49,654 bases of DNA from Prevotella sp. (lineage in GTDB: Bacteria; Bacteroidota; Bacteroidia; Bacteroidales; Bacteroidaceae): NCBI GenBank assembly GCA_017467535.1, contig JAFUST010000048.1, forward strand, positions 1-49,654. Reading direction: 5' to 3'. The position numbers and the translations under genes were made by a program. The notes beneath the pieces were generated by a model. It ran no database searches and was not told the origin of the DNA. It was given only the letters and a program-made list of their open reading frames with translations. How positions within the stretch are numbered: position 1 is the stretch's first letter; each line of letters opens with the position of its first letter. Positions 2,618-14,261 of the stretch are shown here, in pieces.

Positions 2618-3334
2618 ATGGAAACAACAACAATAGCATTGGTAAACACACAGACTACTGACAACATCGGCGAGGGCACTGACGCTCAGCAGCGCATGAC
2701 TTCGCTGGAGATTGCCGAACTCTGCGGCAAACAACATAACGACGTGATGAAAGCCATCCGAAAGATGGAACCTGCATGGGCAAGAATAAACCAGGGAAAT
2801 TTTTCCCTCGTTGAATACCGCGACAAGAAAGGCGAACTCCGACCCTGCTACTCGCTGACGAAGACGGAGACGCTCTACATAGCCACCAAGTTCTGCGACG
2901 AGGCGCGCGCCCGGCTGGTGCTGCGCTGGGAGGTGCTGGAGCGCGAGCGCATGGAGGGCCTCGTGGCCGCCGCCAGGCAGCGGGCCGCACTGCCCTCGCC
3001 CCAGGAGATCGTGAGGCTGGCCGACGGCATAGTGGGCGCGGCGCTGCGCGAGATGAACGCCTCGGCCCACGACACGCTGACGGCCACGCAGGTGGCCAAG
3101 ACGTTCAACATGACGGTGATGAACTTCAACCTGGTGCTGCGCGACATGGGCATACAGTACCGCCACGGCGGCCGCTGGTGTCTGAGCCAGGACTTGGCGG
3201 GGCGCGGACTGACGGAGGTGCGCACCCACGTGAGTTACTCGCTGCGCGGGGAGAAGAAGATCCGCTCCTACATGACGTGGACGATGCGCGGCCTGCACTA
3301 TCTGAACGCCAAGTTGGGCTACCCCAACTTCTGA
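2618..3334 (+). CDS. Rha/KilAC phage-type regulatory protein
   Basis: A 238-residue protein with two phage-regulator modules. Residues 25-112 match the pRha pattern: a helix-turn-helix start MTSLEIAELCGKQHNDVMKA, then SYSLTKTET-type strand residues and an ARLVLRW helix. Residues about 150-237 look like the KilAC/ANT antirepressor C-terminal domain (TATQVAKTFNMTVMNFN, then GRWCLS and YLNAKLG). Rha interferes with lysogeny control in temperate phages, and KilAC domains are found in antirepressors. Spacing to the next gene is 38 bases, so the two are likely one unit. This gene is the clearest sign that the block descends from a phage or phage-like element. Confidence 0.85.
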   Translation: METTTIALVNTQTTDNIGEGTDAQQRMTSLEIAELCGKQHNDVMKAIRKMEPAWARINQGNFSLVEYRDKKGELRPCYSLTKTETLYIATKFCDEARARLVLRWEVLERERMEGLVAAARQRAALPSPQEIVRLADGIVGAALREMNASAHDTLTATQVAKTFNMTVMNFNLVLRDMGIQYRHGGRWCLSQDLAGRGLTEVRTHVSYSLRGEKKIRSYMTWTMRGLHYLNAKLGYPNF

Positions 3335-3372
3335 GATTTTTCCCTTCAACAAAAAGAAAAACGAGATATACC

Positions 3373-5808
3373 ATGAGCGTACACACAATCTACCTGAAGG
3401 ACGGGGTGAAGATGATGCGCCCCGTCACGACGAGAGAGGACTATCTGGCCCTGCGCGACTCTGCCGAGCAGCGCGACACGGTGAAGGCCGTGCGCAGCGG
3501 ACGGCACGAACTGAAGCGGCGGCTGGTGCAGATGAACTACTCCTGCCTGCCCAACCAGGACGGCACGCTGCGCGGCGCCCGTACGGCCAGCACCACCGTG
3601 GGCATGGACATAGACCACATAGGCTCCGCGGAGCAGATGGCGGCCGTGAGGGAGCGCATACTGGAGCGCCGTGAGGCCCTGGGCCTGCTGATGCTGGAGC
3701 GGAGCGCGCGCGGCGAGGGCTACCACCTGGTGTTCCGCCGCCGCCCGGAACTGAGTCAGGAGGAGAACCTGCGCTGGGCCAGTCAGTTGCTGGAGGTGGA
3801 GTATGACGCGGGTGCGAAGGACATCACGCGTGTCTTCTTCACCACCACCGCCAGTGCCGATGATCTGCTGTGGCTGGAGGATGAGGTGTTTGAGACCACC
3901 CAGACCACAAACCCCAAGCCCCCCAAGACCCCCAAGACCCCCAAGACTCTCCCCCAACCCCTCCCTGTAAGGGAGGGGAGTGGTCAGACTCAAGTGCAGA
4001 CCGAAGCGCAGACCGAAGCCCAAGAACTATCTACTCCCCTCCCTCACAGGGAGGGGCCGGGGGAGAGTCTCTTCCCTCACAGGGAGGGGCCGGGGGAGAG
4101 TCTCTTCCCTCACAGGGAGGGGCCGGGGGAGAGTCTGGAGGGTCGTGAGATGGCGGAGCGTGCCTTTTTTAAGGGCATCCCCTACTCCTCCATCATCGCC
4201 GAATACTGGCAGCGCACGGGGGGCGAACCCTCGGAGGGCGAACGCAACACCAGACTGCACCAGTTGGCCGCCAACCTGAGGGCCATCTGCGACGACTCTG
4301 AGGCCTGGCTGCTGCGGCTGATGCCACGCTACGGACTGAACGAACAGGAGATGCGCGCCATCATCCACTCGGCCTGCAAGGAGCCTACGCGCGGGTCGCG
4401 GCTGATGACGGACATCGTTAACTCCCTGTCCCCTAAGTTAGGGGACTACAGGGGTCTGAACAGGGGCTTGAACGAGGGCAAAGGGCCGGACGCTTGTTCA
4501 GACCCCCAACCCCCTAACTTAGGGGGCTATGGGGGCTTGCCAGAGATGCCCAGCCGACTGCCAAAGGTGGTGGCGCTGCTGCTCTCGAAGACGCCGGAGA
4601 TCTACCGCCCGGCGGTGGCCCACGCCATCTTCCCGCCGCTGGGGGCCCATCTGTGGCGCGTGCGCTTCCGCTACATCGACAACGTGATGCACGAGGCCAC
4701 CTTCATGAACGTGCTGATGGCCGGCACCGGCGCGGGCAAGGACTGCATCACGCAGCCCATCAACCGCATCATGGCCGACATCCGCCTGCGCGACGCCGAG
4801 AACCTGCGCCGCGAGGCCGAATGGAAGAAGGAGATGAACACGCGCGGGGCCAACAAGGACAAGCGCCAGCGCCCCGAGGGACTCATCATACAGGAGGTGG
4901 ACCCGGACATGACCAACCCCGCCTTCGTGATGCGCATGGCCGAGGCCGACGAGCACTTCCTCTACACGAAGATGAACGAGATAGACCAGTTCGACGCCCT
5001 GCGCGGCTCGGCCCGCGGCGCGCAGCAGTTCCAGATCATGTGCCTGGCCTTCGACCCCGACAACCGCTACGGACAGACGCGCGTGGGCACGCAGAGCGTC
5101 ACCGAGAAGGTGTGCATCCGCTTCAACTGGAACGCCTCCACCACCATCCAGAAGGGGCAGCGATATTTTTCACGCGTGCTGACCGACGGCCCCATCTCGC
5201 GCATCAACTTCTGCACCATCCCCGAGCGGGAGATTGGGGCCGACATGCCCGTCTACGGCACCTACGACGCCCAGTTCGACGAGGCCCTGCGCCCCTACAT
5301 CGAGCGGCTGACGCGGGCCACGGGCGTGGTGGACTGTCCGCAGGCCTTCCGGCTGGCCCGGCGGCTGAGGGACGAGTGCGCCGAGTTTGCACGCCTGTCG
5401 CAGTCGAGGGTCTACGAGAACCTCTCGTTCCGCGCCTGCGTCATAGCGTGGCTGAAGGCCTGCGTGCTCTACATCCTGAACGACTACCGCTGGGGCCGCG
5501 AGATAGAGGACTTCACGCGCTGGAGCCTGCAGTACGACCTGCGCTGCAAGATGACGTTCTTCGGCGAGGCCATCGAGAATGCCAACCGCCAGTCTGACGA
5601 CCGCGGCCCCCATCGCGGCCCGCGCAATCTGCTGGAGTTGCTGCCCGAGCGGTTCAGCGTGCACGATGCCGACCTGGTGCGCCAGGCCAACGGCATGGAC
5701 ACGCGCGGCACGCGCAACATGCTCTCGCAGTGGCTGCACCGGGGCTACGTCTTACAGATGACAGATGACAGTTATTTTGAAAAGGTTAAAAAGGACATTG
5801 AACATTGA
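3373..5808 (+). CDS. VirE_N / DUF3987 primase-helicase-like protein with repeat-built linkers
   Basis: An 811-residue protein; the start is ATG 3373, since the longer upstream frame overlaps the Rha gene. Residues 1-175 are the VirE N-terminal (BT4734-like) domain, with GMDIDH (D79, D81), GYH (His118) and KD (Asp150) spaced like the three motifs of archaeo-eukaryotic primases. Residues 258-345 form a primase-C-terminal-like helical region. Residues 392-811 are DUF3987-like, with a P-loop AGTGAGKD (450-457) in which Asp replaces the usual Ser/Thr. The linkers 178-257 and 350-391 are translated DNA palindromes (see repeats). The last codons run into a heptamer repeat that supplies the TGA stop. 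It probably primes or unwinds the cassette's DNA; this is inferred. Confidence 0.85.
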   Translation: MSVHTIYLKDGVKMMRPVTTREDYLALRDSAEQRDTVKAVRSGRHELKRRLVQMNYSCLPNQDGTLRGARTASTTVGMDIDHIGSAEQMAAVRERILERREALGLLMLERSARGEGYHLVFRRRPELSQEENLRWASQLLEVEYDAGAKDITRVFFTTTASADDLLWLEDEVFETTQTTNPKPPKTPKTPKTLPQPLPVREGSGQTQVQTEAQTEAQELSTPLPHREGPGESLFPHREGPGESLFPHREGPGESLEGREMAERAFFKGIPYSSIIAEYWQRTGGEPSEGERNTRLHQLAANLRAICDDSEAWLLRLMPRYGLNEQEMRAIIHSACKEPTRGSRLMTDIVNSLSPKLGDYRGLNRGLNEGKGPDACSDPQPPNLGGYGGLPEMPSRLPKVVALLLSKTPEIYRPAVAHAIFPPLGAHLWRVRFRYIDNVMHEATFMNVLMAGTGAGKDCITQPINRIMADIRLRDAENLRREAEWKKEMNTRGANKDKRQRPEGLIIQEVDPDMTNPAFVMRMAEADEHFLYTKMNEIDQFDALRGSARGAQQFQIMCLAFDPDNRYGQTRVGTQSVTEKVCIRFNWNASTTIQKGQRYFSRVLTDGPISRINFCTIPEREIGADMPVYGTYDAQFDEALRPYIERLTRATGVVDCPQAFRLARRLRDECAEFARLSQSRVYENLSFRACVIAWLKACVLYILNDYRWGREIEDFTRWSLQYDLRCKMTFFGEAIENANRQSDDRGPHRGPRNLLELLPERFSVHDADLVRQANGMDTRGTRNMLSQWLHRGYVLQMTDDSYFEKVKKDIEH
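3912..3950 (+). repeat. 9-bp tandem repeat encoding Pro-Lys-Thr
   Basis: Copies of CCCCAAGAC in frame give PKTPKTPKT in the linker after the VirE_N domain of the primase-like protein. A short, variable, proline-rich hinge is the likely effect. Confidence 0.7.
3945..4136. repeat. Palindromic element: 35-bp inverted copies plus 33-bp tandem units, in frame
   Basis: The 35 bases 3945-3979 are nearly the exact reverse complement of 4035-4069, with a 55-bp spacer. The right copy is extended as three tandem 33-bp units (4041-4073, 4074-4106, 4107-4136), each containing CCCTCACAGGG and AGGGGCCGGGGGAGAG. Because 33 is divisible by three, each unit adds PHREGPGESLF without breaking the frame. A relative of the same GC-rich palindrome lies at 22953-22982 inside another gene. 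Confidence 0.9.
4424..4535. repeat. Second palindromic element inside the primase gene
   Basis: The left arm (4424-4462) contains CCCCTAAGTTAGGGG and GGGTCTGAACA; the right arm (4495-4535) contains TGTTCAGACCC and CCCCCTAACTTAGGGGG. The arms are imperfect reverse complements around a spacer of about 32 bases. It is translated in frame as a Gly/Pro/Asn-rich linker (about residues 350-391) between the helical region and the P-loop domain. Confidence 0.85.
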
Positions 5809-5889
5809 ACATTGAACATTGAACATTGAAGATTGAACATTGAAGATTGAACATTGAACATTTTTTTCATTGAACATTCAACATTGAAG
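5754..5889. repeat. Heptamer repeats over the primase stop codon and the DUF5675 leader
   Basis: Bases 5754-5773 are identical to 333-352 (ACAGATG-type heptamers) and are translated in frame. From 5797 to 5889 follows a run of ATTGAAC or ATTGAAG units, broken once by ATTTTTTTC. The second unit provides the TGA stop (5806-5808), and the run ends 6 bases before the next ATG at 5896. A change in copy number would alter the leader of the DUF5675 gene and could alter the primase C terminus. Confidence 0.9.
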
Positions 5890-5895
5890 ATTATC

Positions 5896-10117: not shown

Positions 10118-10912
10118 CTATCGCTTGATTTCTATGTCGCGGCGCACGTTGTCGCGTATCTTCTTCAGGTAGTGCTTCATGCCGTCGGCATCCTTGCTGT
10201 CGATGATCTCGAGCAGTTCCTTCAACTCCGTGCGTATCTGGCTCACCTGGTCGTGGGTGTAGGGGTTGAACAGGATTTCCTGCAGCAGGTAGTCGTCCTC
10301 GTTGAGCACGCCCTTGGCTATCTTCATGTGGCGCTTGAAGGTGGTGCCGGGGGCATCCTGGTGCTTCATCACGGCGGCGAAGACGAAGGTGGACACGAAG
10401 GGGATGGACAGCGAGTAGGCCACCGTGCGGTCGTGCTCCTCGAAGGTGTACTCGTAGATGTTGAGCCCCAGTTTCTGGTAGAGGTCCTTGAAGAAGATGC
10501 GGCCCATGTAGTCGCCCTCGCTGATGATGATGGCGTTCTCCTCGGAGAGTTGCTGCAGGTTGGCAAACGTGGGGCCGAACATGGGGTGAGTGGACACGTA
10601 GCGGCGGCCCGACTGCTCGTAGAACTCCCTGAGGTCGGTCTTCACGCTGGCAATGTCGCTGATGATGCAGTCCTGCGGCAGATAGGGCATCACCTCCTGG
10701 AAGACGGGGATGGTGTACTTCAGCGTGACGGCATTGATGAGCAGTTCGGGACGGAAGTCGCGAATCTCCTCCAGTTCGGTGAACCGCTGGCAGTTGTAGG
10801 TGAACCGCATGCGTCGCGGGTCTTTCTCGAAGACGGCCACCTCGTGGTCGAAACTGAGCAGGTCGATGAAGAACGACCCCATCTTGCCTGCGCCTAATAC
10901 TAATATCTTCAT
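10118..10912 (-). CDS. tyrA: Prephenate dehydrogenase-like protein
   Basis: A 264-residue protein with an N-terminal Rossmann motif VLGAGKMGSFF, an acidic strand end (FEKD), and the prephenate/arogenate dehydrogenase pattern DIASVK...STHPMFGPT. It oxidises and decarboxylates prephenate to 4-hydroxyphenylpyruvate, the tyrosine branch. It is the last gene of the aromatic operon, starting 5 bases after the DAHP synthase stop, so it should share control by the leader upstream of pheA. No separate ACT or mutase domain is seen; the mutase is fused to the DAHP synthase instead. Confidence 0.92.
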   Translation of the reverse strand: MKILVLGAGKMGSFFIDLLSFDHEVAVFEKDPRRMRFTYNCQRFTELEEIRDFRPELLINAVTLKYTIPVFQEVMPYLPQDCIISDIASVKTDLREFYEQSGRRYVSTHPMFGPTFANLQQLSEENAIIISEGDYMGRIFFKDLYQKLGLNIYEYTFEEHDRTVAYSLSIPFVSTFVFAAVMKHQDAPGTTFKRHMKIAKGVLNEDDYLLQEILFNPYTHDQVSQIRTELKELLEIIDSKDADGMKHYLKKIRDNVRRDIEIKR

Positions 10913-10917
10913 ATCCT

Positions 10918-11982
10918 CTATTTGTTCACAATCTCAATCTGCTGCCTCACGCTCTCCTCGTGGATGCTCTCGAAGACCTTGGCCACAAACTCCGGCGACA
11001 TGCCCGTCAGCGAGCCCTGCACGCCGCGCTTCTCCAGAATCTCGTTGTAGCGCGAGGTCTGCAGCACGGTCATGTTGTGCTCCTTCTTGTAGTTGCCAAT
11101 CTCGCGGCACACGCTCATGCGGCGCGCCAGCAAGTCCATCAGTTGGTTGTCCAGTTCGTCAATCTGCTTGCGCAGTTGCTGGATGCTCTCGGTGGTCACG
11201 TGCTCGTCGCGGATGACAAGCAGCGAGAGGATGTAGTCGAGCACCTCGGGCGTCACCTGCTGCTTGGCATCGCTCCAAGCCTTGTCGGGGTCGCAGTGGC
11301 TCTCCACGATCAGCCCGTCGAAGCCCAGGTCCATGGCCTGCTGGCAGAGCGGGGCGATGAGTTCGCGACGGCCGCCGATGTGGCTGGGATCGCAGATGAT
11401 GGGCAGATCAGGAATGCGGCGGTGCAGTTCGATGGGAATCTGCCACATCGGCGCGTTGCGGTATATCTTCTGCTCAAAACTGGAGAAGCCGCGGTGGATG
11501 GCTCCCAGACGCTTGATGCCTGCCTGGTTCAGACGCTGCAGGGCACCGATCCAGAGTTCCAGGTCGGGGTTGACGGGATTCTTCACGAAGACGGGGATGT
11601 CCACGCCCTTCAGCGAGTCGGCCAGGGCCTGCATGGCAAAGGGGTTGGCCGTAGTGCGGGCGCCCACCCACAGGATGTCCATGTCGTACTTCATGGCCAG
11701 TTCCACGTGCTCCGGCGTGGCCACCTCGGTGGAGATCAGCATGTGGGTCTCCTCCTTCACCTGCTTCATCCAGGGCAGGGCCTTCTCGCCGTTGCCCTCG
11801 AAGCCGCCGGGCTTGGTGCGCGGCTTCCACACACCGGCACGGAAGTTGTGGCAGCCCTTCATGGCCAGTTCGCGGGCGGTCTTCATCACTTGCTCCTCGG
11901 TCTCGGCACTGCAGGGGCCTGCAATGACGAAGGGGCGTTCATTGTCACTCGGAAGATTCAGTTTCTCTAGTTCCAGTTCCAT
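10918..11982 (-). CDS. aroF: Bifunctional DAHP synthase / chorismate mutase
   Basis: A 354-residue protein. Residues about 1-255 are a type I-beta 3-deoxy-D-arabino-heptulosonate 7-phosphate synthase (FVIAGPCSAET, GVWKPRTKPGGFEG, IHRGFSSFE, ICDPSHIGGRR). Residues about 265-354 are an AroQ-type chorismate mutase (LRKQIDELDNQLMDLLARRM, with YNEI). It joins the first step of the shikimate pathway to the first step of the Phe/Tyr branch, an arrangement known in Bacteroidetes, where the mutase part can mediate feedback control. It overlaps the upstream aminotransferase gene by 16 bases. The symbol is generic for the activity. Confidence 0.93.
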   Translation of the reverse strand: MELELEKLNLPSDNERPFVIAGPCSAETEEQVMKTARELAMKGCHNFRAGVWKPRTKPGGFEGNGEKALPWMKQVKEETHMLISTEVATPEHVELAMKYDMDILWVGARTTANPFAMQALADSLKGVDIPVFVKNPVNPDLELWIGALQRLNQAGIKRLGAIHRGFSSFEQKIYRNAPMWQIPIELHRRIPDLPIICDPSHIGGRRELIAPLCQQAMDLGFDGLIVESHCDPDKAWSDAKQQVTPEVLDYILSLLVIRDEHVTTESIQQLRKQIDELDNQLMDLLARRMSVCREIGNYKKEHNMTVLQTSRYNEILEKRGVQGSLTGMSPEFVAKVFESIHEESVRQQIEIVNK

Positions 11983-13148
11983 AGTCTTATATTGTCTTTT
12001 TTGATTCTTTCCAATGCCTCTTGTATCTTCTCCTCCTTGGCACAGAGGGAGATGCGGATGTAGCGCTCGCCGTTGGAGCCGAAGATGAAGCCCGGGGTGA
12101 TGAAGACGCGGGCCTCGTGGAGCACACGCTCGGTGAGGTCTTCCACATTCTTATATCTGTCGGGTATCTTGCCCCAGAGGAACATGCCCACCTGACTCGG
12201 GTCGTAGGTGCAGCCCAGCACGTCCATGATCTGCTCGGCATAGCGGCGGCGGCGGCGGTAGGTCTCGATGTTGGCTTCGCGGTGCCACTCGTCGCTGTTC
12301 CGGTAGGCCTCGGCGGCAGCCAACTGGATGCCGCGGAAGGTGCCGCTCTCGATGTTGGACTGCACCTTGAGAATCCACTGGATGAACTGGGCGTTCGAGG
12401 CGCAGAGACCGACACGCCAACCGGGCATATTGTGGCTCTTCGACATCGAGTTGAACTCGATGCAGCAGTCCTTGGCCCCGGGCACCTGCAGGATGCTCAG
12501 ATGCTCCTCGCTGAGGATGAAGGAATAGGGATTGTCGTTCACCACCACGATGTTGTGCTCGCGGGCGAAGGCCACCAGCCGCTCGTAGGTCTCACGGCGG
12601 GCACGGCCACCGGTGGGCATATTGGGATAGTTGGTCCACATGAGTTTGACGCGGGAGAGGTCCATGCGCTCCAGTTCGTCGAAGTCGGGCTGACAGCCGT
12701 TGTCCTCGCACAGATTGTAGTTCACGATTTTGGCACCGAGGATCTTCGAGAGCGAGGTGTAGGTGGGGTAGCCGGGATTGGGCACGAGCACCTCATCGCC
12801 CGGATTGACGAAGGCGAGGGTGACGTGCAGGATGCCCTCCTTCGAACCGATGAGCGGCAGCACTTCGGTCTTGGGGTCGAGGTCCACGTCATACCAGCGC
12901 TTGTAGAAGCCGGTCATCGCCTCGCGCAGTTCGGGCGTGCCCTGAGTAGGCTGATAGCCGTGAGCACCGGGCTGGCGGGCCACCTCGCACAGTTTGTCGA
13001 TGGTCTGTTCCGAGGGCGGCATGTCGGGACTGCCGATGGCCAACGAGATGATGTCCTTGCCCTCGGCGTTGAGTTGCGCCACCTCCTTCAGTTTGCGGCT
13101 GAAGTAGTATTCCTGTACTAAATTTAGTCTGTCTGCTGGTTGTATCAT
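11967..13148 (-). CDS. PLP-dependent class I/II aminotransferase in the aromatic operon
   Basis: A 393-residue fold-type I aminotransferase. ATG 13148 is chosen over a TTG three codons upstream that lies inside a heptamer repeat. Visible features are SLAIGSPDMPP, the NYPNMPTG loop, NDNPY (the cofactor-ring Asp/Tyr area), and SMSKSHNMPGWRVG with the Schiff-base Lys at about 237. Its position between pheA and the DAHP synthase suggests it converts phenylpyruvate and 4-hydroxyphenylpyruvate to Phe and Tyr. By sequence alone it could also be another aspartate- or diaminopimelate-type aminotransferase. Confidence 0.88.
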   Translation of the reverse strand: MIQPADRLNLVQEYYFSRKLKEVAQLNAEGKDIISLAIGSPDMPPSEQTIDKLCEVARQPGAHGYQPTQGTPELREAMTGFYKRWYDVDLDPKTEVLPLIGSKEGILHVTLAFVNPGDEVLVPNPGYPTYTSLSKILGAKIVNYNLCEDNGCQPDFDELERMDLSRVKLMWTNYPNMPTGGRARRETYERLVAFAREHNIVVVNDNPYSFILSEEHLSILQVPGAKDCCIEFNSMSKSHNMPGWRVGLCASNAQFIQWILKVQSNIESGTFRGIQLAAAEAYRNSDEWHREANIETYRRRRRYAEQIMDVLGCTYDPSQVGMFLWGKIPDRYKNVEDLTERVLHEARVFITPGFIFGSNGERYIRISLCAKEEKIQEALERIKKDNIRLWNWN

Positions 13149-13149
13149 A

Positions 13150-13180
13150 ATTCTCAATTCTCAATTTTCAATTCTCAATT
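13150..13180. repeat. ATTCTCA heptamer repeat between pheA and the aminotransferase gene
   Basis: Four units of ATTCTCA (the third ATTTTCA), on the coding strand TGAGAAT. They fill the 26-base gap and run over the pheA stop end and the aminotransferase start region. Confidence 0.85.
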
Positions 13181-14005
13181 CGCCCTGTATTCTCCTAAGA
13201 TTTTCAAGTCACGTGTCAGGGGGATGATGGCATCGATGGCCTGGCGGTAGCGGGTCAGGTCGTTGTAGGTCACGTCGACATAGAACAGGTACTCCCACTC
13301 CTTGCCGATGATGGGCAGCGACTGGATCTTCGTCAGGTTGATCTTGTAGAACGAGAGGATAGCCAGAACGGCCGAGAGCGAACCCTCCTCGTGGGGCAGG
13401 GCAAAGACGATGCTGGCCTTGTCGGTCTCGACGAGCGGACGCAGGAGGTCGGCCTTCTGGGGCATGGAGCACACCAGGAAGCGGGTGTAGTTGTGCTTGT
13501 TGTCCTCGATGCCGTCTTCCAGCACCTTCAGGCCATAGAGGCGGGCGGCCTCGGCGTGGCAGATGGCTGCCCAGCCGTGGTGCTGGCCCTCGGCAATCAT
13601 CTTGGCCGAACCGGCCGTGTCGTCGGCCTCCACGATGCGCAACTCCGGGTGGTGCTCCAGGTAGTGGCGGGTCTGCATGAGGGCCACGGGATGGGAGTGC
13701 ACCTCGGTGAGCGTCGACCAGTCGTCGTCGGGCAGACAGCAGATGCAGTGGGTGATGTGCAGTTTGTGCTCGCCCACCACGGTGGTGCCGCTGTCGCGCA
13801 GCAACTCGTAGTTGTGGAGCAGGCTGCCGGCGATGGTGTTCTCGATGGCGGCCATGCCGATGACGGTGGGATCCTGCTGGATGCTCTCATAGACCTGCTC
13901 GAAGGTGCTGCAGCAGATGAGTTGCAACTGCTCGCCCTGGAAGTACTGGTGGGCGGCAATGTCGTGGAACGACCCTATCTCGCCCTGTATGGCTATTCGC
14001 TTCAT
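13175..14005 (-). CDS. pheA: Prephenate dehydratase with ACT domain
   Basis: A 276-residue protein beginning MKRIAIQGEIGSFHD. Residues about 3-180 are the periplasmic-binding-like dehydratase domain (IENTIAGSL, and NYTRFLV, which holds the catalytic TRF motif); residues about 195-270 are an ACT domain (GSLSAVLAILSFYKINLTKIQSLP) that usually binds Phe for feedback inhibition. It makes phenylpyruvate from prephenate. ATG 14005 with AAAGG upstream fits the family start. An in-frame upstream ATG at 14068 would translate straight through the terminator hairpin and is less likely. It is the first structural gene after the Tyr/Phe-rich leader. Confidence 0.94.
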   Translation of the reverse strand: MKRIAIQGEIGSFHDIAAHQYFQGEQLQLICCSTFEQVYESIQQDPTVIGMAAIENTIAGSLLHNYELLRDSGTTVVGEHKLHITHCICCLPDDDWSTLTEVHSHPVALMQTRHYLEHHPELRIVEADDTAGSAKMIAEGQHHGWAAICHAEAARLYGLKVLEDGIEDNKHNYTRFLVCSMPQKADLLRPLVETDKASIVFALPHEEGSLSAVLAILSFYKINLTKIQSLPIIGKEWEYLFYVDVTYNDLTRYRQAIDAIIPLTRDLKILGEYRAN

Positions 14006-14021
14006 ATTCCTTTGTTCATTT

Positions 14022-14104
14022 AAAAGCCCCACTTTCACTCTCTGGTGAAGCGGGGCCTTATGTTTCATATCCTTCTGAAATCTAAACGCGACTTCCCGCT
14101 TCAC
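14022..14104 (-). promoter_or_regulatory. Attenuator: terminator and competing antiterminator upstream of pheA
   Basis: Minus-strand reading. Terminator: GCCCCGCTTCAC (14056-14045) pairs with GTGAAAGTGGGGC (14038-14026), with one G-U pair and one bulged A, loop CAGAGA, followed by TTTT (14025-14022). Antiterminator: GTGAAGCGGG (14104-14095), inside the leader-peptide codons, is a perfect 10-bp complement of CCCGCTTCAC (14054-14045), the terminator's 5' arm, so the two structures exclude each other. A ribosome stalled upstream on Tyr/Phe codons would leave 14104-14095 free to block termination. A ribosome reaching the stop codon (14084-14082) would cover it and let the terminator form. Confidence 0.88.
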
Positions 14105-14156
14105 AATGGCTTGCAAAGTAAAAGTAGAAGTAAAAATATGCGTTCAGACCTGTCAT
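14082..14156 (-). CDS. Aromatic leader peptide with four Tyr-Phe pairs
   Basis: A 24-codon frame from ATG 14156 to TAG 14084-14082, about 30 bases downstream of the promoter. After MTGLNA come eight alternating codons read as YFYFYFYF (TAT TTT TAC TTC TAC TTT TAC TTT), then ASHCEAGSRV. The run is the classic sign of a leader peptide whose translation measures charged tRNA-Tyr and tRNA-Phe. The final codons contain the antiterminator strand, and the stop sits ahead of the terminator. The downstream operon makes exactly these two amino acids. The gene is too short for usual gene finders; no leader symbol is assigned because the family is not named in this group. Confidence 0.88.
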   Translation of the reverse strand: MTGLNAYFYFYFYFASHCEAGSRV

Positions 14157-14185
14157 TTTTTCTTTCGTTTTGTTATTTTCGGCTG

Positions 14186-14217
14186 CAAAAGTATAACAAT
14201 TCTTTGAAATACGCAAA
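14186..14217 (-). promoter_or_regulatory. Promoter of the pheA-aminotransferase-DAHP synthase-tyrA operon
   Basis: Minus-strand TACTTTTG (14193-14186) matches TAnnTTTG, with TTTG (14217-14214) 20 bases upstream. It places the transcript start near 14180, giving a leader of about 175 nt before pheA that contains the leader peptide and attenuator. Confidence 0.78.
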
Positions 14218-14261
14218 TAAAATGGAAGAAATTTTCATATTTTATTTTTCCGTCACTAAGA

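Follow-up and report, generated by a model that had tools for sequence, protein, structure and literature searches.

The window (the whole stretch of DNA that was analysed, 49,654 nucleotides, positions 1-49,654 of Prevotella sp. contig JAFUST010000048.1) carries a four-gene operon encoding prephenate dehydratase (pheA), an aminotransferase, a bifunctional DAHP synthase/chorismate mutase (aroF/CM) and prephenate dehydrogenase (tyrA), preceded by a short leader region with the anatomy of an attenuator. All parts of the attenuator and the operon lie on the minus strand (Table 1). The NCBIfam matches of the four genes were clear, yet all stayed under the curated cut-offs; among the matches listed, the closest pheA proteins came from a rumen Prevotella MAG (98% identity). 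The second gene, for which the ORF listing begins at TTG 13157, was taken to start at ATG 13148, and its product is probably the operon's aromatic aminotransferase.

Table 1. Coordinates of the leader elements and operon genes in the window.
Feature	Position	Strand	Details and basis
Promoter, presumed Bacteroidetes type	14186..14217	-	TTTG 14217-14214, 20-nt spacer, TAnnTTTG 14193-14186
Leader ORF, 24 codons, MTGLNAYFYFYFYFASHCEAGSRV then stop	14082..14156	-	translation; predicted, from sequence
Control codons, eight (Tyr-Phe four times; leader codons 7-14)	14115..14138	-	codon table
Candidate protector (1:2) hairpin, overlapping arm 2	14080..14149	-	predicted fold
Arm 2, 5' strand of antiterminator, GTGAAGCGGG, 10 nt	14095..14104	-	exact reverse complement of arm 3
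Arm 3, common to antiterminator and terminator, CCCGCTTCAC	14045..14054	-	exact complement of arm 2
Intrinsic terminator hairpin; its U-tract is short (4 U)	14022..14059	-	hairpin 14059-14023, U-tract to 14022
pheA, prephenate dehydratase	13175..14005	-	NCBIfam PRK11898, E 8.9e-55, below curated cut-off; ATG 14005
Aminotransferase	11967..13148	-	nearest NCBIfam models LL-diaminopimelate aminotransferase-like; best below curated cut-off
aroF/CM, bifunctional DAHP synthase/chorismate mutase	10918..11982	-	both domains matched, scores below curated cut-offs
tyrA, prephenate dehydrogenase	10118..10912	-	E 2.3e-21, below curated cut-off

The TAnnTTTG and TTTG elements upstream of the leader follow what we take to be the Bacteroidetes-type promoter consensus, and the predicted leader ORF is short and contains a run of codons for the amino acids that the operon produces, as in known attenuators. 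The promoter, the 24-codon leader with its eight Tyr/Phe codons and the 10-bp pairing had all been described in the original prediction, and each was confirmed at its position. When the transcript was folded from 14160 to 14058, before arm 3, the structure obtained (-22.5 kcal/mol) had a main hairpin that occupies arm 2; this candidate protector is formed by the pairings 14149-14140/14089-14080, 14125-14120/14096-14091 and 14118-14111/14106-14099. No Rfam family, including the leader, riboswitch and T-box families, matched the whole window at gathering thresholds, and at E values of up to 10 the region 13990-14230 gave three unrelated low-score matches only. Among 2327 ORF starts scanned in the window (ATG, GTG or TTG; 8-60 amino acids), the only two ORFs with at least six Tyr or Phe in eight residues were the leader and its own in-frame extension, and ten Markov-1 resampled windows contained no ATG ORF with eight Tyr/Phe out of eight.

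Conservation was assessed at 190 pheA loci of the family Bacteroidaceae, which consisted of the window, 80 loci from named genomes (the best 80 of 487 relatives), 29 further loci and 80 regions; 128 family genomes gave a match, with 18 left out (G027, G018, the fragmentary G100 and 15 weak matches of at most 29% identity). Since species overlap between the locus sets, the locus counts are not independent, and distinct peptides are therefore given as well. A leader with a Tyr/Phe run was present at 177 of the 190 loci. These leaders comprised 152 distinct peptides, every one of which combined Tyr with Phe in the run, and the two residues made up shares of 0.481 and 0.474 of the run, respectively. 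In 174/177 cases a TAnnTTTG motif lay upstream of the leader ATG at a distance of at most 110 nt (median 28 nt; shuffled control, 9/177); in 115 leaders an exact TTTG was found 17-23 nt further upstream, at a spacing of 20 in 87 of them. The 13 loci without a scored leader included one at a contig end (L113), two in which, by eye, the arms and hairpin were kept and the run altered (L093 and L097), and nine with neither leader nor paired arms. At the thirteenth, L042 (genome G601), the operon was intact and the hairpin kept, the Tyr/Phe run having been lost either by natural deletion or by assembly error.

The position of arm 2 relative to the run was also conserved. Its GCGG motif was missing from 6/177 family leaders; among the other 171, it lay 14-15 nt past the run in 146. 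Over all 171 loci the motif fell in frames 0, 1 and 2 of the leader in 74, 19 and 78 cases; because it is read in all three frames while the spacing is kept, it is conserved as RNA and not as peptide. The stop codon of the leader preceded GCGG at 39/171 loci, the stop in the window being downstream of arm 2. The wide conservation of the ORF would be expected if it encoded a functional small protein, aromatic and perhaps membrane-associated, next to hairpins of no consequence. This explanation is barely conceivable, since the C-terminal part, the stop and the frame of arm 2 vary while the nucleotides of arm 2 persist, and since 152 distinct peptides occur in 177 loci. The spacing from the control codons to arm 2 agrees with the stalling geometry of ribosome-mediated attenuators. 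In terms of the ribosome footprint, on the size of which this argument relies, the fixed distance suggests the need of a stalled ribosome to hide the run and leave arm 2 free.

Outside the family, 52 matches were obtained in the class Bacteroidia, of which the partial G267 and G172 were left out (n = 50). Aromatic-run leaders were found at 35 of these loci and represent 15 families, all but one from outside the Bacteroidales; the other 15 loci had no scored leader at pheA. In all 34 distinct class peptides the run contained Tyr as well as Phe (shares of 0.424 and 0.490), and the arms were unlike those of the family in sequence yet matched each other, for example in L195, L214, L218 and L248. 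The design, which the original prediction had placed in the Bacteroidales, is therefore not confined to that order, and a pheA element has been reported from Flavobacterium psychrophilum (PMC9723704). Trp was present in 10/34 distinct class runs, compared to 3/152 in the family, and these leaders possibly sense all three aromatic amino acids. Trp-bearing runs were seen in L199, L203, L245, L246, L198 and L262 (e.g. TYFWFYP and YFWFYYYYF). Elsewhere in the phylum, none of 20 sampled loci from distant families had a qualifying leader ORF, and the three best-scoring loci outside the class (L261, L263 and L264) did carry a leader. An order-mate (L256, genome G370) has a tandem pair of Tyr/Phe leaders (1445 and 1583, minus strand), both with a terminator-like hairpin downstream, ahead of a piece of a pheA gene at a contig end, a second pheA match lying elsewhere in that genome; this arrangement is possibly a two-step attenuator.

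Among the 80 named family loci, an aminotransferase gene followed pheA in 75/75 of those with a leader. The five without a leader included L007, L035 and L040, in which pheA stood without the other operon genes in the stretch examined, and L044, in which the aminotransferase was on the opposite strand; the fifth was L042. Genomes were also searched with a leader model (R1) built on sequence only, which matched 23/40 genomes and gave at most one strong match in each. Matches of up to 22.8 bits were taken as chance and the 24.6-bit match in G370 as real; single weak matches in G351, G356, G361 and G375 had no Tyr/Phe-rich ORF, except for two in G356, which were AT-rich and were also attributed to chance.

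In contrast to the original prediction, which had tied the attenuator to pheA, the leader model matched directly before the aminotransferase gene (27.6-40.5 bits) in eight of the nine genomes that had no sign of the element at pheA. The aroF/CM gene followed in seven of these eight, the contig of the eighth (L333) ending inside the aminotransferase gene, and tyrA followed within the stretch examined in four. The search found nothing in G598 (L007) or G601 (L042). In L318, L321, L322 and L323, all of one genus, the detached leader and hairpin before the aminotransferase lacked an uninterrupted U-tract, a hint that these copies are controlled in another manner.

In 14 family genomes (10, plus G344, G346, G351 and G358) no pheA match was obtained, and tyrA was also unmatched in 14/14. 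Their aroF/CM genes had no pheA, aminotransferase or tyrA within 1.1-1.5 kb on either side and no leader-like ORF there; the genomes gave no match to the leader model above 20.6 bits. These were among 20 genomes examined around aroF/CM. Of the other six, G019 had a leader (53.1 bits) at a contig end; G045 had aminotransferase-aroF/CM-tyrA without a leader match, its contig ending inside the aminotransferase gene; G022, G039 and G050 had no close aroF/CM; and G364 was 56% complete. The leader is present where the aminotransferase is detached and was not found in genomes that lack the Phe/Tyr branch. The element therefore follows the Phe/Tyr operon and not pheA, whose first place in the operon is usual and not essential; G045 is the one genome that runs counter to this pattern.

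The terminator was examined across the same loci. A finder that demanded more T residues missed 17/177 leaders, including that of the window, and was replaced by calling that is less strict on T; hairpins were then found between the leader and the first gene in 175/177 family leaders (not in L089 and L119) and 35/35 class leaders, with one call (L200) judged wrong by eye. The hairpin that the original prediction had placed before pheA was present in the window (-20 to -22 kcal/mol, varying with the ends chosen), and the U-run assigned to it proved to be weak, below that of most relatives. The tract reads TTTT and then AAAT, and the window terminator was absent from the output of a generic terminator scan of the minus strand; in the family (n = 175), the longest T run was shorter than four in 12 hairpins, four in 18, including the window, and at least five in 145.

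At 175 family loci the gap between hairpin and first gene is small (median 27 nt), and the window has a weak U-tract and L318, L321, L322 and L323 a discontinuous one, as might be the case if the hairpin acted on translation, masking the start region of the first gene until the alternative pairing exposed it. Such control is improbable, because across the family the hairpin-to-gene distance varies between 9 and 157 nt, because the five or more T residues that end 145/175 hairpins are not needed to mask a start site, and because the first gene behind the element may be either pheA or the one for the aminotransferase. Termination of transcription is the reading that we prefer.

The predicted antiterminator and terminator share arm 3 and are mutually exclusive. 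In the family, arm 2 paired with its own arm 3 at a mean of -19.5 kcal/mol, compared to -16.6 for swapped and -9.7 for shuffled partners; the corresponding values for the class outside the family were -14.8, -10.0 and -7.4. A median of 20% of swapped terminators paired equally well in the family (own best in 22/175) and 10% in the class (own best in 8/35); swaps are often as good within the family because its arms are so alike. When one locus was taken from each of 16 families, arm 2 paired with its own terminator at -15.4 kcal/mol versus -10.7 after permutation, and 0/500 permutations were as good as the true pairing in each of 20 draws; in the single draw listed by locus, the own partner ranked first in seven cases and ninth or worse in three. 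The element thus survived comparison with close relatives, in which loss of the leader frame or of the alternative pairing had been named as a sign against it: the leader was kept at most loci, and own partners on average paired better than swapped ones.

Arm pairs were counted at 168 anchored loci, 131 of them distinct, the anchor fixing GCGG:CCGC by construction. Arm position -2 was A-T in 84 and G-C in 31, with 119 paired versus 99 expected (n = 131 distinct); at the other positions pairing was little or no better than expected, with a modest excess at -6 to -3. With the run masked, as it would be by a stalled ribosome, the minimum-energy structure computed for the transcript up to arm 4 contained the antiterminator at 175/175 family and 34/35 class loci; with the run unmasked, it did so at 117/175 and 25/35. 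In the full-length transcript the terminator was favoured even with a stalled (masked) run, so that the model needs co-transcriptional folding, as in classical attenuators.

RNAalifold returned from the leader alignment only a 5-bp helix (-0.58 kcal/mol), a weak consensus that we read as the result of tandem CUUUUAC repeats, which allow several registers, and of a one-nucleotide alignment slip between GUGAAG and GUAAGA types. Synonymous shuffling of the last eight codons changed the energy from -10.0 (real) to -9.3 (shuffled); 86/143 loci were stronger than their own shuffled mean, and the median fraction as strong was 0.39. Because this gain is weak, the protector hairpin is kept as a candidate.

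Computation established the anatomy, conservation, spacing, mutually exclusive pairings and operon association of the element. As the original prediction held, and as both the anatomy and the comparisons support, a ribosome-mediated transcription attenuator very likely controls the Phe/Tyr operon. Stalling, termination, a response to Tyr and to Phe, and transcription-translation coupling at this locus would then be expected. RNA polymerase would start at the TAnnTTTG promoter and a ribosome would translate the leader. If charged tRNA-Tyr or tRNA-Phe were scarce, the ribosome would stall in the YFYFYFYF run and cover both the run and the upstream protector strand; arm 2, some 10-13 nt beyond the run, would stay free and would pair with arm 3 before arm 4 is made, allowing read-through into pheA-aminotransferase-aroF/CM-tyrA. 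If both tRNAs were charged, the ribosome would move on over arm 2, or would leave and let the leader fold on itself; with arm 2 unavailable, arm 3 would pair with arm 4 and transcription would end. A joint Tyr and Phe signal would in this way act simultaneously on pathway entry (DAHP synthase), the chorismate mutase branch point and the two branches.

Such dual sensing fits the sequences. It is possible, though doubtful, that the same attenuator answers to starvation for Phe only (or Tyr only), the other codon being kept for a UUUUAC-like pairing with arm 2. The closest experimental precedent found is the C. glutamicum AroR leader (aroR, upstream of aroF): it contains Phe-Tyr-Phe and, by the available account, responds to Phe while being insensitive to Tyr (Neshat 2014, via PMC11802643). 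Likewise, the last three codons of the family run are near-invariant (TTT in 149, TAC in 168 and TTT in 166 of 175 loci), a strict choice despite the weak effect of synonymous codons on energy. On the other hand, class loci with different arm sequences keep both residues in 34/34 distinct peptides, Tyr and Phe are about equally common in the run in family and class, and the operon serves both branches, tyrA being unmatched in all 14 pheA-less family genomes. Under joint sensing, the element may be an ancestral cis-regulator of the Bacteroidia in which the ribosome reads the Tyr and Phe supply together (and Trp in some clades) and sets the whole aromatic flux, with aminotransferase-aroF/CM-tyrA as its true target; we give this broader proposal an even chance.

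Leader-peptide attenuation itself is a known kind of control. The pheL leader of E. coli is known for Phe codons only and differs from the present leader, in which Tyr and Phe alternate before a four-gene operon with both branches and the pathway entry; the leader families in Rfam gave no match from the window. Like the E. coli pheA attenuator, the element combines a short leader ORF containing end-product codons, a terminator before pheA and an alternative antiterminator; the ribosome-mediated nature of the E. coli system is covered in PMC11802643. The C. glutamicum aroR leader is similar in that Phe-Tyr-Phe precedes an operon with a DAHP synthase gene, and differs, as far as the available description goes, in having Phe-Tyr-Phe only, a response to Phe only and a different phylum. 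For F. psychrophilum, the accessible text reports a structured pheA 5' element common to other Flavobacteriaceae and finds strong indications that amino-acid operons are preceded by leader-peptide attenuators (PMC9723704). The gene, the class and the suspected mechanism are the same, and the element is very probably a flavobacterial version of the Tyr/Phe attenuator; that text gives no peptide, Tyr/Phe pattern, spread past the Flavobacteriaceae or aminotransferase-aroF link.

The uORFC-13-1 motif of Acholeplasma aroF is described in the available portion of its source as having 24 representatives, in Acholeplasma and environmental sequences only, with at least one Phe codon (PMC8632094); it is alike in placing an upstream ORF coding for Phe beside a terminator before DAHP synthase, and differs in that no Tyr/Phe run is described there. 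As excerpted, a 2010 survey knew, ermC aside, of leader-peptide systems in the Proteobacteria and Actinobacteria only, until it added a Firmicutes case of its own (PMC2965389). The available main text of a B. thetaiotaomicron transcriptome study notes that long 5' UTRs can hold short ORFs resembling leader peptides and does not contain the word pheA (PMC7366714). In the one open-access full-text library searched, no description was found of the Tyr/Phe pattern, its extent in the class, its geometry or its attachment to aminotransferase-aroF, which leaves the absence of one unproven. The attenuator survey of Vitreschak et al. (2004, FEMS Microbiology Letters) reportedly mentions Bacteroidetes/Chlorobi.

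To our knowledge, transcription-translation coupling has been little studied in the phylum Bacteroidota. An attenuator that occurs over much of the class with strict geometry offers a direct reporter for such coupling in the phylum and a handle on how the supply of two amino acids could be read by a single ribosome. Within the set of genomes analysed, the element served as a marker for retention of the Phe/Tyr branch.

Other leaders were also observed. Near hisG in an order-mate (L301, genome G366), position 1169 of the minus strand has a leader rich in His, MKLYTSHHGHHHFLQ, accompanied by a terminator-like hairpin; no His-rich leader ORF was found near hisG in the genome of the window (L305) or in L302-L304. 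The genome of the window (L307) has, at position 105 of contig C9, a Trp leader, MKTLFNAWWWRCSRF, and behind it a terminator-like hairpin; at least one other gene separates this leader from the trpE match some 1.4 kb downstream. WWW leaders were also present in L308, L310 and L311. Attenuation may be a general habit in these genomes. Period-7 tandem arrays of the ATTGAAG type were found at the pheA-aminotransferase junction (13149-13181) and at 5795-5892, and also in 5/175 family spacers between run and terminator (L031, L048, L058, L059 and L134; shuffled control, 0). A perfect 33-bp tandem repeat of 2.9 copies (4040-4136) lies within a large ORF (3178-5808).
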